64,000 nucleotides of DNA, taken from the NCBI RefSeq assembly GCF_017751145.1, contig NZ_CP046640.1, positions 910,137 to 974,136 of the forward strand, written 5' to 3'. Below the pieces are notes generated by a model. That model was not told the origin of the DNA, searched no databases, and saw only the letters and a program-made list of their open reading frames with translations. The translations under genes were made by a program, and so were the position numbers. Position 1 is the stretch's first letter. Each line of letters starts with the position of its first letter. Below are positions 8,001-54,788 of this stretch, one piece after another. This DNA is from Iocasia fonsfrigidae. Its GTDB lineage: Bacteria > Bacillota > Halanaerobiia > Halanaerobiales > DTU029.

Positions 8001-9610
8001 CACCACCCCATCATGATATTTATTCAATAGAAGACTTAGCAGAGTTAATCCATGACCTGAAAAATGCCAACCGGGATGCCAGGATAAATGTTAAGCTTGT
8101 TTCTGAAGTAGGGGTGGGCACTATTGCCGCTGGTGTTGCCAAGGGTAAGGCAGATGTTATTCTTATCAGTGGTTATGATGGTGGTACAGGTGCTTCACCG
8201 AGAACGAGTATTAAACATGCTGGACTCCCCTGGGAATTAGGTCTTGCTGAAACACATCAGACCCTGGTGTTAAATAAGCTGCGCAGCAGGGTTAAACTTG
8301 AGACAGATGGTAAACTGATGTCTGGTAAAGACCTGGCTGTGGCTGCATTACTGGGGGCAGAGGAATATGGTTTCGCTACTGCACCTTTGGTGGTAATGGG
8401 TTGTGTTATGATGAGGGTCTGCAACCTTGACACCTGCCCAGTAGGGGTAGCTACCCAGAATCCTGAACTAAGGAAGAGGTTTGCTGGCGAAGTAGAGCAT
8501 CTTGTTAATTTTATGCATTTTATTGCCCGGGAAATGCGTGAAGAAATGGCCAGACTTGGTTTCCGGACAGTAGATGAAATGATCGGCCGTGTTGATAAAC
8601 TTAAACGGGATAAGGCTTTTAAACACTGGAAGGCCAAGGGTTTAGACTACTCAAAGATACTCTATCAACCTGAAGAAAGTGCTCAGGCCGCTACTTTCTG
8701 TCAGATCAAACAGGACCATGGTATAGAGGAATCCATGGATATGAAAGAATTGCTTCAGCTAGCTAAACCAGCCTTAGATAAGGGTGAAAAAGTAGAATTT
8801 AACTTAAAAATCAAGAATATAGACCGGGTAGTTGGTACAGTTCTTGGTAATGAATTAACCAAAAAATATGGTGCAGCAGGTCTACCGGCCGATACCATCA
8901 AATTAAATTTTGCAGGTTCTGCCGGTCAGAGTTTTGGGGCATATATACCACAGGGTATTACCCTGACTTTACAGGGTGATTCTAATGACTATATCGGTAA
9001 GGGTTTATCAGGTGGCAAAATAATTGTTAAGGTTCCTGAGGATGCTGATTTTAGTTCTGAAGATAATATAGTAGTAGGTAATGTAGCCTTTTTTGGGGCA
9101 ACTTCAGGGGAGGCCTATATCCAGGGTGTTGCTGGAGAAAGGTTTTGTGTAAGAAATAGTGGTGTTCATGCTGTAGTTGAAGGTGTCGGTGACCATGGAT
9201 GTGAGTACATGACAGGAGGTCGTGTTGTTATATTAGGGAAAACTGGGCGAAACTTTGCAGCCGGAATGTCTGGTGGTGTAGCATATGTTTTTGACCGGAA
9301 AGGTAATTTAGCCGACCGGACAAATCAGGCCATGGTTGAACTGGAACCTTTACAGGAAGAGAATGATATTAACTTTGTTAAAGAAATGATTAAAAAACAT
9401 CTTAATTACACCGGGAGCAGCTATGCCAGAAAGATTCTTGATAACTGGTCTGACAATGCAGCTAAATTTGTCAGGGTTATGCCTCGGGATTACAAACGGA
9501 TGATTGAGGCGATAAATAGTTTTGAAGAAGAGGGGCTAAAAAAAGATGAAGCACTGATGGCTGCTTTTGAGCAAAATAATAGTGATGCAGCAAGGGTTAG
9601 TGGTAATTAA
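5012..9610 (+). CDS. gltB: glutamate synthase, large (alpha) subunit
   Basis: Transfers the amide of glutamine to 2-oxoglutarate, giving two glutamates. The 1532 residues show the standard order: an N-terminal class II glutamine amidotransferase domain whose nucleophile would be Cys22 after removal of a propeptide (EHDACGMGF); a central domain; the FMN-binding synthase barrel ([46 protein letters not shown]); the three-cysteine 3Fe-4S motif ([13 protein letters not shown]); and a C-terminal GXGXG beta-helix (SGGVAYVFD region). ATG at 5012 follows AGGGGATGATGC. It is 23 nt upstream of gltD, with which it forms the holoenzyme. No truncation or unusual residue was noticed. Confidence 0.97.
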
Positions 9611-50072: not shown

Positions 50073-51296
50073 ATGAGAAAGGTTTTATTTGTGCTAACAT
50101 TTACTTTATTATTGGTTTTGACTGCTGTTAATGTATTGGCTCAGACTGATATTACTTACTGGTTATGGCTGGATGACCCAACAGACCCGACAATTAAAAA
50201 TTTAGTTGAAGAATATAATAAAACACATCCAGATATTAATGTGAATATGGAAATGATCCCGATGTCACAGTATCATGATAGGCTTGCTACAGCCCTGGCA
50301 ACCAATTCTGGACCAGATGTGGCCAGGTTTAAGATATGGTGGCTTGGGGAATTTGAAAAGGCTGGATTATTAGAGGGGCTGGATAATTATATAAATTCTT
50401 GGGATATGAAGAATGATGTTATTGATAACCTGTGGGATACCGGTAAGGTTCCCGGTAAGGATGAAGTTTACATGATGCCACACCAGTTTATTAGTTTTTA
50501 TATGTATTACCGCCAGGACTGGTTTGAAGAAAATGGTTTAAGTGAACCAGTAAGCTTTGCAGATATGCTTGAGGCGGGGAAGGCTTTTACAGACCCGGAT
50601 GAGCAGCGCTATGGTTTTGCACTACGTGGTGGCGCAGGCGGTGGTGACCAGTGGCTGGCCTTTATGTTAGCAGGTGGAGCCAGGGTGATAGATGAAGATG
50701 GGAATGTTATTATTAATAATGATACGGCTGTTGAGGTAAATCAATTGTATATTGATCTTTTCCGCAAACATCATATTGCACCACCTACCTGTCCTACAGA
50801 TGGCTTTGCCCAAATAATGGGTGGTTTCCAGTCAGGTAATACTGCTATGGCTATGCATCATGTAGGTTCTTCTAAAACTATGCAAGAGGCTCTAGGGGAC
50901 AATGTTGCGGTAACAGCTATACCTCAAAAAGACCCTGATAATCCTGCAACAATTGCTGCTATGAGTGGACATGTAATGTTTAAAACCTCTGCTAAAAAAG
51001 ACGCAGCCTTTAAATTTATGTCCTGGATGACTGAAAAACGTGCTATGGAGAAATGGACTAATTCGGCAGATGGCCAGTTACCTGTCCTGAAATCAGTTGC
51101 CCGGATGCCTAAATTCCAGGATGACCCATTTTATAAGGTATCAATGGAGGCTGCAGATTATGCTAAAACCTGGCCACCATTACCAGGTGTAGGCTATATA
51201 ACCTCTTCATTATGGCAGGAATTAATGCAAAAAGCACTTCTAGGTGAAATTAGTAGTCAGGAAATGCTTGATCAAATTGCAGAAAATATACAATAG
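50073..51296 (+). CDS. extracellular solute-binding protein, family 1
   Basis: Binding protein of a second sugar ABC importer, 407 residues. Signal peptide (1-23) cleaved near VLAQ, no lipobox. The mature part has the family 1 pattern (YWLWLDDPTDPTIKNLVEEY, GPDVARFKIWW, FKFMSWMTEKRAMEKW). AAGGGGGA precedes ATG 50073. The stop codon is TAG at 51294-51296, and the following permease frame continues in the same phase. Confidence 0.92.
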   Translation: MRKVLFVLTFTLLLVLTAVNVLAQTDITYWLWLDDPTDPTIKNLVEEYNKTHPDINVNMEMIPMSQYHDRLATALATNSGPDVARFKIWWLGEFEKAGLLEGLDNYINSWDMKNDVIDNLWDTGKVPGKDEVYMMPHQFISFYMYYRQDWFEENGLSEPVSFADMLEAGKAFTDPDEQRYGFALRGGAGGGDQWLAFMLAGGARVIDEDGNVIINNDTAVEVNQLYIDLFRKHHIAPPTCPTDGFAQIMGGFQSGNTAMAMHHVGSSKTMQEALGDNVAVTAIPQKDPDNPATIAAMSGHVMFKTSAKKDAAFKFMSWMTEKRAMEKWTNSADGQLPVLKSVARMPKFQDDPFYKVSMEAADYAKTWPPLPGVGYITSSLWQELMQKALLGEISSQEMLDQIAENIQ

Positions 51297-51311
51297 AAGG
51301 GGGTTGTTATT

Positions 51312-52205
51312 ATTAAACTATATGATAAAAGGGCGCAGTTCTGGCTGCGCTCTATCCTCTTAGGTCCAAGTCTGTTTTTGCTGGTTTGTATTATAGCATA
51401 TCCAGTTTATTATGCTATTGTTTTAAGTCTAACAAATACACATCTTTTAATGCCAAATGCTTCTGAGTTTATTGGTCTTAAGAATTATATTGAACTTTTT
51501 TTAAATAAGGATTTTTATACTGCATTGTATCGTTCTATTGTCTGGGTGATTTCCTGTGTATCCTTTCAATTGATTGCCGGCTTAATCGGGGCGCTGATAA
51601 TGGATCAGAATTTTAAAGGTCGAGGTCTTGTCAGGGGTATTTCCTTAGTACCCTGGGCTACTCCTAGTGTTTTGGTGGCTTTAATGTGGGCCTGGTTACT
51701 TGATGGTAACTATGGGGTTATCAATGATTTGCTGCAAAAATTAGGACTGATTAGACATTATATTCCCTGGTTAGCCCAGGGCAGTACTGCCTTGCCCAGT
51801 GTTATTCTGGCTAACATATGGCAGGGAACACCATTTTTTGCGGTTATGTTGCTGGCTTCACTGCAGTCAATACCTGAAGAATTGTATGAAGCTGCCAAGA
51901 TAGATTCAGCTAATTCATGGCAGATATTCTGGTATATTAAATTGCCCTTTCTGCTGCCGACTATTTTGATTACTAGTATGTTAAGAATCATGTGGACAGC
52001 AAATTATATGGATTTAATATATATTATGACAGGTGGAGGGCCGGGTAGTAGTAGTATGATTCTACCTGTTTATTCATATATAAAGGCCTACAAAAAATTG
52101 GAAATGGGGCAGGGTGCTGCAGTGGCTATCATTCAGGTTGTTTTATTATTAATAGTAGTTTTATGGTATTTACGTTTACTAAAGAAAAGGGGGCGTGATT
52201 TTTAA
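51312..52205 (+). CDS. sugar ABC transporter permease (MalF/UgpA type) with an apparent ATT start
   Basis: Membrane permease with the EAA loop YEAAKIDSANSWQIFWYIKL. The first NTG codon in frame is TTG 51378, but that lies inside the first membrane helix and would drop the conserved head KLYDKRAQFWLRSILLGPS, which is encoded in frame just upstream. Between the previous gene's TAG and that head there is no ATG, GTG or TTG in frame; two ATT codons (51309, 51312) lie 5 and 8 nt after AAGGGGG. I use 51312, giving 297 residues, the normal family length. An ATT start, or a 1-nt sequence error (a TTG at 51304 and ATG at 51322 are out of frame), are the alternatives. Confidence 0.75.
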   Translation: MKLYDKRAQFWLRSILLGPSLFLLVCIIAYPVYYAIVLSLTNTHLLMPNASEFIGLKNYIELFLNKDFYTALYRSIVWVISCVSFQLIAGLIGALIMDQNFKGRGLVRGISLVPWATPSVLVALMWAWLLDGNYGVINDLLQKLGLIRHYIPWLAQGSTALPSVILANIWQGTPFFAVMLLASLQSIPEELYEAAKIDSANSWQIFWYIKLPFLLPTILITSMLRIMWTANYMDLIYIMTGGGPGSSSMILPVYSYIKAYKKLEMGQGAAVAIIQVVLLLIVVLWYLRLLKKRGRDF

Positions 52206-53035
52206 TGAACAAGACAAAAATAACGTCTAGGCTGAAATACTTGGTTATATTTGGCTGGTTATTTTTTATTATTGCACCATACCTATGGATGTTTATAACA
52301 TCACTGAAACCACCGGCAGAAATATACACCAAAACAATAAATTACTGGCCCAATAACCCTAGCATAGAATCTTATCTAAGCCTATTAAAAACCACGCCAT
52401 TTATCAGGTATTTTTTAAATAGCTTGCTTGTTGCTGTTGGTACAACAGTTATAGCCTTAATTGCTTCAGTAACTGCGGCTTTTGTTTTTTCAAGGTTACC
52501 TTTTCGCGGCAGCAGGGGTTTGTTATCTGGTATGTTAGTATCACAGATGGTTCCAGCCATACTGCTGGCGATACCATTGTTTTTGATATTTAATAAACTA
52601 AGCTTTGTAAATTCTATTGTCAAACTAATTCTGGCCCACAGCACATATGCGATTCCCTTTGCAACCTGGACAATGACCGGGTTTATAAATGAGATACCAA
52701 GGAGTATTGATGAAGCTGCTGCTATTGATGGTGCCAGTCCACTGCAGATATTCTGGCATGTTTTATTACCACTGATTATACCTGGTGTAGTTGGTGTTGC
52801 CACCTATATATTTATTTTTTCCTGGAAAGAATTTTTATATGCTTTAACACTAACCTCCAGGACAGTTGATAGGACATTACCTATCGGACTGCATACATTT
52901 ATGGGTGAATACACTATTCGTTGGGATCTTTTAACTTCAGCCGGGGTTATTACTGTAATACCTGTTATTTTGATCTTTGTGTTAGGTCAGAAATATTTGA
53001 TTGCCGGTTTGACTGCCGGTTCTACAAAAGGATAG
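52205..53035 (+). CDS. sugar ABC transporter permease (MalG type)
   Basis: Second permease of the importer, 276 residues, six membrane segments and EAA loop (DEAAAIDGASPLQIFWHVLL). ATG overlaps the previous stop (TAATG), so the two permeases are translationally coupled. No ATPase gene adjoins; a shared multi-importer ATPase is probably used. The split transketolase genes follow after 24 nt in the same run. Confidence 0.93.
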   Translation: MNKTKITSRLKYLVIFGWLFFIIAPYLWMFITSLKPPAEIYTKTINYWPNNPSIESYLSLLKTTPFIRYFLNSLLVAVGTTVIALIASVTAAFVFSRLPFRGSRGLLSGMLVSQMVPAILLAIPLFLIFNKLSFVNSIVKLILAHSTYAIPFATWTMTGFINEIPRSIDEAAAIDGASPLQIFWHVLLPLIIPGVVGVATYIFIFSWKEFLYALTLTSRTVDRTLPIGLHTFMGEYTIRWDLLTSAGVITVIPVILIFVLGQKYLIAGLTAGSTKG

Positions 53036-53059
53036 TTATATCAAGAGGGGGTTAAGGGT

Positions 53060-53857
53060 ATGAGTAAAGAATTAGAATATTTTAAGTCAAAAACCGATAT
53101 GATTAGAAGGGATATTATTACTATGTTAGGGGAGGCTGGTTCTGGCCATCCGGGTGGTTCTTTATCAGCTGTAGAAATATTGAGTAGTTTGTATTATGAA
53201 TTAATGGAAAAAGGGGATAAGTTTGTTCTTTCCAAAGGACATTCTGCCCCAGCATTATATTCAATTTTAGCTGATAAAGGGTATTTTGCTAAAAAAGAAT
53301 TAATGACATTACGTAAATTAGGTAGTATTCTTCAGGGACATCCAGATATGAAAAAGACTCCAGGTGTTCATTTTTCAACAGGGTCTTTAGGACAGGGACT
53401 GTCGGCAGCAAATGGGATGGCTATTGCCGCAAAATATGATAAAAGTGATCAAAGAATATATGTTTTACTGGGGGATGGGGAATTACAGGAAGGACAGATC
53501 TGGGAGGCTGTTATGACTGCCAGGCATAGACGCTTAGATAATCTTATTGCCTATGTGGACCATAATAATTTGCAAATTGATGGAAGCTGTGTAGAGGTTA
53601 AATCATTAGATAAGATAAAGGAAAAATTTCTATCCTTTGGTTGGGGTGTTTTTACTATTGATGGTCATGATATAAAAAGTATTATTGAAACCACCAGAAA
53701 AGCATGGCAGGTCAAGGGGAAACCTGTCTGTATAATTTCCAATACTATTAAAGGTAAAGGGATATCTTTTATGGAAGATGAAGTGGGCTGGCATGGTAAA
53801 GCGCCATCTAAGGAAGAGGTTGAACTGGCCTTAAAAGAATTAAAGGGGGTTGAATAA
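53060..53857 (+). CDS. transketolase, N-terminal subunit (second copy)
   Basis: 265 residues, paralogous to 38197-39015. It has SGHPGGSLSAVE (His-Pro-Gly-Gly, where the first copy has HVGG), KGHSAPALY, TGSLGQGLSAANGMA and the ThDP motif GDGELQEGQIWEA ending in DHN. ATG follows AGAGGGGGT. Placed directly after ABC permease genes, so it probably acts on a sugar brought in by that importer. Confidence 0.9.
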   Translation: MSKELEYFKSKTDMIRRDIITMLGEAGSGHPGGSLSAVEILSSLYYELMEKGDKFVLSKGHSAPALYSILADKGYFAKKELMTLRKLGSILQGHPDMKKTPGVHFSTGSLGQGLSAANGMAIAAKYDKSDQRIYVLLGDGELQEGQIWEAVMTARHRRLDNLIAYVDHNNLQIDGSCVEVKSLDKIKEKFLSFGWGVFTIDGHDIKSIIETTRKAWQVKGKPVCIISNTIKGKGISFMEDEVGWHGKAPSKEEVELALKELKGVE

Positions 53858-53858
53858 A

Positions 53859-54788
53859 ATGAATGAGTTAATTGCTACTAGAGATGCATATGGTGAGGCT
53901 CTGGTTGCTCTAGGGGAAAGTGAAGAGATCTTTGTTTTTGATGCTGATTTATCCTGTGCAACCAAAACAGAGCACTTTGCTGCCAAATACCCGGAACGAT
54001 TTTTTCAGATGGGTATTGCTGAACAGGATATGATGGGGACGGCTGCTGGTACAGCAGTTATGGGTAAAACCCCTTTTGTTAGTACCTTTGCCTTGTTTGC
54101 AACTGGCCGGGCCTATGAACAGGTAAGGAATAGTATTGCTTATCCTAATCTTAATGTTAAAATTGCAGCCAGCCATTCAGGCATAACTGTAGGACCAGAT
54201 GGGGGTTCACACCAGTCTGTAGAGGATATTGGCTTGATGAGATTGGTCCCTAATATGAAGGTTGTTGTTCCAGCAGATGCTTATGAAACCAGGAAGGTAT
54301 TAGAGGCTGCCCTGGAGATTGAAGGCCCGTTTTATATACGGCTCGGTAGGAATCCTGTCCCTGTTCTTTTTAATGATGATTATGAATATGAGTTTGGGAA
54401 GATTTCTACCTTAACTGATGGTTCAGACCTTACTATTGCTGCTACTGGTATAATGGTAACAGAGGCTTTACAGGCAGCAAAATTATTAAAAAAAGATGGT
54501 ATTAATGTACGCGTATTAAATGTACATACCATTAAACCCCTGGACAAAGAGACAATTATCAAGGCCGCTGAAGAAACCAAATTAATTGTTAGTGTAGAAG
54601 AACATTCAATTATTGGAGGTCTTGGTGCAGCGATATGTGAACTCCTATGTGAACAAAGACCTACCCCTGTGGTAAGAATGGGGCTAAATGATACCTTTGG
54701 TCAGTCTGGTTCTCCAGAAGAATTATTAGAGTATTATGGTCTTACTGCTGATAATATTGTTAAAAGAGTGAAGACTGTGTTAGCTTAG
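53859..54788 (+). CDS. transketolase, C-terminal subunit (second copy)
   Basis: 309 residues from ATG 53859 (8 nt after AAAGGGGGT; an in-frame TTG at 53850 lies inside that RBS). It carries RFFQMGIAEQDMMGTAAG with the catalytic Glu, then YEQVRNSIAYPNLNVK and VSVEEHSIIGGLG. One base lies between the partner's stop codon and this ATG. Paralogue of 39034-39960. Confidence 0.9.
   Translation: MNELIATRDAYGEALVALGESEEIFVFDADLSCATKTEHFAAKYPERFFQMGIAEQDMMGTAAGTAVMGKTPFVSTFALFATGRAYEQVRNSIAYPNLNVKIAASHSGITVGPDGGSHQSVEDIGLMRLVPNMKVVVPADAYETRKVLEAALEIEGPFYIRLGRNPVPVLFNDDYEYEFGKISTLTDGSDLTIAATGIMVTEALQAAKLLKKDGINVRVLNVHTIKPLDKETIIKAAEETKLIVSVEEHSIIGGLGAAICELLCEQRPTPVVRMGLNDTFGQSGSPEELLEYYGLTADNIVKRVKTVLA

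Follow-up and report, generated by a model that had tools for sequence, protein, structure and literature searches.

A predicted AUU start codon in a sugar ABC transporter permease gene and a possible wider use of AUU, AUA and AUC starts in its order

Described non-NTG starts and the permease locus

Bacteria guard the choice of start codon through initiation factor 3 (IF3) and the three G:C pairs in the anticodon stem of the initiator tRNA. How this stem and IF3 set start fidelity has so far been examined mostly in E. coli mutants and in mycoplasmas. A non-NTG start is a known habit of infC, and an ATT start is seen in the sequence of E. coli infC. E. coli pcnB also has an AUU start, as cited in PMC13009471. 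In S. aureus, initiation profiling showed four AUA/AUU starts in the whole genome, those of infC, cvfC1, ccpN and citZ, which lie behind extended Shine-Dalgarno (SD) sequences, and the three that were tested gave about 10% of the AUG output in poor medium (PMC13009471). In Mycoplasma pneumoniae, an unconventional initiator tRNA goes together with changes in IF3 to which a reduced fidelity has been linked (PMC10568206, citing Ayyub et al. 2018).

The window, i.e. the whole 64,000-nucleotide stretch of DNA that was analysed, carries on its plus strand an operon (50073-54788) of a solute-binding protein gene (SBP_bac_1, 50073-51296), two permease genes and two transketolase halves. The first permease is of the MalF/UgpA sugar ABC transporter type (BPD_transp_1, PF00528, 81.2 bits against a gathering cut-off of 26.4, 9.9e-23). 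Behind the TAG that ends the binding-protein gene (51294-51296), the sequence runs on in the same frame as AAG GGG GTT GTT ATT ATT AAA CTA TAT GAT AAA AGG, with no other in-frame stop between the two genes, and this open frame spans 51297-52205 (302 codons, stop 52203-52205). The permease stop overlaps the ATG start of the second permease gene (MalG type, 52205-53035, from the reading-frame list and the family assignment). The first in-frame NTG (ATG, GTG or TTG) of the first permease is TTG 51378-51380, which is residue 23 counted from ATT 51312 and lies inside TM1. An earlier note on this DNA had described a permease without NTG at its natural start, in frame with the upstream gene, and this was confirmed; TTG 51304 and ATG 51322, which it had placed outside the permease frame, both belong to the +1 frame.

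The permease with its predicted AUU start resembles the S. aureus cases in having an AUU/AUA start, a strong extended SD at a set spacing and no NTG at the natural start. Unlike the four S. aureus cases, such starts would make up about 1-1.6% of the genes here and are known from sequence alone, and the start of the permease is not conserved. The likeness to E. coli infC and pcnB lies in an AUU start behind an SD and in the weak initiation expected from it, but those are isolated regulatory genes, whereas the permease has no known feedback link. A start codon conserved in orthologues, which is not strictly a defining feature, is found for infC and ccpN and also for dpaA (see below), but not for the permease.

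The earlier note had also drawn the parallel to infC and its feedback control. The parallel itself stands, since infC of the window's genome likewise has no NTG start, with ATC behind AGGAGG; ATC behind AGGAGG or GGAGG was found in 27/27 infC genes read in genomes of the order (G000-G037, probably Halanaerobiales; loci L064, L216-L242), and this known infC habit served as an internal control. The feedback part did not hold up: nothing ties the permease to such control, its product is a sugar permease that does not act on start-codon discrimination, and its six closest orthologues use ATG.

Start codon of the permease

To the SD of the permease, AGAAGGGGG (51296-51304, plus strand, AAGGGGG core), we assigned a duplex with the 16S tail that reaches 51304 and for which simple stacking energies add up to about -17 kcal/mol. 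As a reference for SD spacing, 207 genes of the window's genome for which only one NTG start is plausible were measured for the distance to their best duplex with the 16S tail, and this spacing peaked at 7-8. ATT 51312-51314 lies at the modal spacing of 8 and ATT 51309-51311 at 5, a spacing found in 8/201 genes, suggesting that 51312 is the better of the two ATT candidates. The earlier note had fitted the ribosome-binding site to either codon; the site is real, and 51312 is now preferred. From ATT 51312 to the GPS of TM1, the head would have 17 residues (12-23 in homologues), and the protein (51312-52205) would have 297 residues. The permease has a near-cognate ATT correctly spaced from a strong SD and no NTG at its homology-defined N-terminus, and it very probably starts at ATT (AUU) 51312. 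RNA structure at this start showed nothing unusual (z -1.05), and a genome search for the pattern AGGGGG-N9-ATTAAA was uninformative.

A shorter permease starting at TTG 51378 is very unlikely. An automatic annotator would choose this codon as the first NTG in frame, but such a start cuts TM1, loses the cytoplasmic head present in orthologues, has an SD of only -7.6 at spacing 13 and leaves the strong upstream SD without use. The reading through of TAG 51294 into a binding-protein/permease fusion, which the earlier note had considered formally possible, is most unlikely. While the shared frame without a further stop would allow it, the C-terminus of the binding protein matches orthologues that stop at the same point, a dedicated SD follows the TAG, and a fusion would be expected from MalF-type topology to misorient the first permease helix. 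Pyrrolysine read-through of the TAG was rejected, as the best PylS match in the genome scored 26 bits against a cut-off of 178.

The nearest permease orthologues (L039-L042, L069 and L070), which are 48-51% identical, come from other families of the phylum. All six start with ATG, and the comparison of orthologous start codons called for by the earlier note therefore returned an ATT that is not shared. No closer permease copy was found in the window's genome or in the sampled genomes of its order, and a search of the genome contigs for close relatives gave one distant match only. The SDs of the six orthologues are weaker (-10.7 to -11.6) than that of the permease (-17), as if a strong SD offset the weak ATT codon, in this one case only. 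Among other permease homologues, those at G023:C1:1032360-1033181 (L034) and G028:C22:46201-47022 contain one in-frame TAG each.

In the alignment, the ATG of the orthologues falls on the TAT codon at 51321, with ATG 51322-51324 only one base away. This fits a further explanation, a one-base error as raised by the earlier note: a sequencing error of one base, or a real frameshift, would hide an ordinary ATG. Most simply, a base would be missing after ATG 51322, or an ATG would have been misread as ATT 51312. With one base added, the distance from ATG 51322 to TM1 becomes 14 residues, equal to that of most of the closest orthologues, and the adjoining A and G runs are typical indel sites. However, ATG 51322 lies 18 nt from the SD, a spacing used by none of the reference genes (one uses 17), which makes the indel reading less likely. 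Moreover, the frame-0 residues KLYDK...FW resemble the start of the homologue L012, MLKKLFDKHFHYW, in an alignment that needs a gap. Considering also that the same pattern occurs at many other genes and in independently assembled genomes (see below), we regard such an error as unlikely.

Candidate AUU, AUA and AUC starts in the genome and its order

The recurrence of non-NTG starts across the genome and the order was missed by the earlier note. From the window's genome, 1.26 Mb were sampled (60 stretches plus the window), with genes called by hexamer bias. A first scan without requirements for modal spacing and a weak NTG gave a diluted signal (17 ATT in 199 matches, 9.7 expected). In the orphan-SD test, the codon 7-8 nt from a strong SD was read wherever no in-frame NTG has an acceptable SD; its thresholds were set after looking at the window's genome, and the other genomes were then tested unchanged. 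In the window's genome, 12/25 orphan-SD codons were ATT, ATA or ATC (5, 5 and 2, respectively), compared to 2.3 expected from codon use (P 6e-7). The other genomes of the order gave 8/12 (G012), 6/10 (G023), 5/7 (G004), 3/5 (G003) and 0/1 (G001), so that the six genomes together reached 34/60 against a codon expectation of about 9%. Decoy (permuted) anti-SD sequences yielded only 11-15 of 58-97 codons (16% pooled; P about 1e-12), the excess over the decoy rate persisted when the discovery genome was left out (22/35, P 7e-10), and other thresholds gave the same picture of enrichment. Of the 37 orphan-SD codons that are one base removed from ATG, 34 carry the change at the third position (P 5e-10 compared with random change), a spectrum that random error or decay would not give. 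This preference, 34 to 3, also speaks against a random error at the permease locus.

Counted by gene, ATT, ATA or ATC starts were assigned mechanically to 34/2087 genes of the six genomes (1.6%), and manual reading for clean cases only left about 11/1099 genes (1%) in the window's genome. In several of the listed cases an NTG lies a few codons off, and the start may be an ordinary one. For example, purA of G004 and G023, with a strong SD above a non-NTG codon, was rejected as a clean case, its nearby ATG probably being the true start; the G023 gene is still among the 34. Roughly 1-1.6% of the genes of the order thus appear to start with AUU, AUA or AUC, and rarely with CUG, behind strong SDs.

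As controls, E. coli K-12, Niallia taxi and Acetoanaerobium noterae gave 0/9, 0/2 and 3/6 orphan-SD codons, corresponding to 0/305, 0/381 and 3/446 genes. The order exceeded the pooled controls (3/1132, Fisher 1.5e-4) and the Bacillota controls alone (P 0.0025), while its difference from Acetoanaerobium alone was not significant (P 0.09). Together with the three candidate starts in Acetoanaerobium, the latter value indicates that the trait may reach beyond the order. The enrichment could even be a general property of AT-rich Bacillota, a view compatible with an ATT start at 51312: Acetoanaerobium belongs to the Clostridia, and S. aureus has its four experimentally shown cases (PMC13009471). 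But Niallia, with 36.5% GC and strong SDs, has none in its 381 genes, and the order as a whole lies above the Bacillota controls; we therefore consider a property of all AT-rich Bacillota doubtful, though a serious alternative to a trait of the order. The three possible ATT/ATA/ATC starts of Acetoanaerobium noterae (NZ_CP154629) are at L252 + 47837, L250 + 26400 and L257 - 48474.

In seven proteins of the window's genome, the family profile begins on the proposed non-NTG start or only a few residues from it. They are DpaA (ATT, with no NTG until 58 codons downstream), YqeY (ATA), a Gfo/Idh oxidoreductase (ATT), an ECF-type ATPase whose ATT ATT AAG is nearly the same start as that of the window's permease, an amino-acid permease (ATA), a PocR kinase (ATA) and a TolQ homologue (ATT). 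In relatives, reading of the sequences pointed to further cases in PurN (ATT), MinE (ATC), SMC (ATT) and ZupT (ATA).

The gene dpaA was found in ten genomes of the order, where it starts with ATT (4), ATA (2), ATC (1), CTG (2) or TTG (1), always at an SD spacing of 7-8. The start is thus non-NTG in 9/10 genomes, over three families (loci L283, L284 and L286-L292). As these nine genomes were assembled independently and have different codons, a shared sequencing error is ruled out there. Outgroup dpaA genes from other families of the class mostly have ATG, TTG or GTG further upstream, with a head 7-9 residues longer. As part of the reading given below, and for dpaA above all, selection may keep some genes on non-NTG starts while the codon turns over among AUU, AUA, AUC and CUG. 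Were the dpaA start found to remain weak through these codon changes, this would directly show that weak initiation is selected for.

Initiator tRNA, IF3 and a possible mechanism

The initiator tRNA was read in one genome of the order, G023 (L209, complement 8968-9044). Its anticodon stem is AGG/CCT instead of GGG/CCC, i.e. AU/GC/GC, a departure from what is a hallmark of initiator tRNAs in bacteria. A pattern search for the canonical GGG/CCC stem gave 0 matches in the window's genome. In IF3 of the order, the residue equivalent to E. coli R99 is G and that equivalent to R112 is mostly K; these residues were seen in 28/30 and 26/30 of the sequences compared, respectively, and R131 is kept in 30/30; Ayyub et al. 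are said to have found R131 replaced in mycoplasmas with relaxed initiation. The literature search turned up no paper linking IF3 R99 or R112 to non-NTG starts.

The order resembles the mycoplasmas in an initiator tRNA without the full GC/GC/GC stem (in G023 only), in IF3 substitutions and in unusual start codons. It differs from them in the AU/GC/GC form of the stem (G023), in the place of the IF3 changes (E. coli 99 and 112, with R131 kept), and in its larger genomes, spore genes and strong SDs. From these features we infer that AUU, AUA and AUC would be tolerated in the order owing to the changes in its initiator tRNA and IF3. Tentatively, and with somewhat less than even confidence, we propose a relaxed start-codon rule throughout this order of free-living bacteria, under which these codons would be ordinary minor starts (about 1-1.6% of genes), enabled by an initiator tRNA that lacks the first G:C pair and by an altered IF3, with selection holding some genes such as dpaA on non-NTG starts.

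For the permease, the unusually strong SD, which begins at the upstream stop codon, would place the 30S subunit for ATT 51312, and this start could also receive ribosomes that have just finished the binding-protein gene, which ends 15 nt upstream. The formyl-methionyl initiator tRNA would then be accepted on AUU despite the third-position mismatch. The likeliest account is the same physics as at the S. aureus AUA/AUU starts with a more permissive apparatus, the permease AUU being one case of an order-wide habit. Transporters of this kind need fewer copies of the permease than of the binding protein. Compared with the abundant binding protein, less permease may be made because of the AUU; this effect is probably modest, giving fewer copies of the permease than of the binding protein from one mRNA. 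Since the orthologues use ATG, the ATT could have arisen either by drift tolerated in a permissive system or by tuning.

Such genes would be truncated or dropped by gene finders restricted to ATG, GTG and TTG. In the window's genome, dpaA would be shortened by 58 residues, with its Rossmann motif gone, and the permease by half of TM1. If AUU, AUA and AUC are used routinely, the order would offer a natural system for how the initiator-tRNA stem and IF3 set start fidelity.

The order binding protein-permease-permease is kept in the distant families of the phylum that hold the nearest orthologues, and L042 also has a transketolase-like reading frame, which suggests that the operon has been transferred. 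Downstream of the permeases, a split transketolase is joined to the sugar transporter genes, its N-terminal half at 53060-53857 (by sequence reading) and its C-terminal half at 53850-54788. The latter more likely starts at ATG 53859, which has the better SD spacing, than at the mechanically listed TTG 53850.
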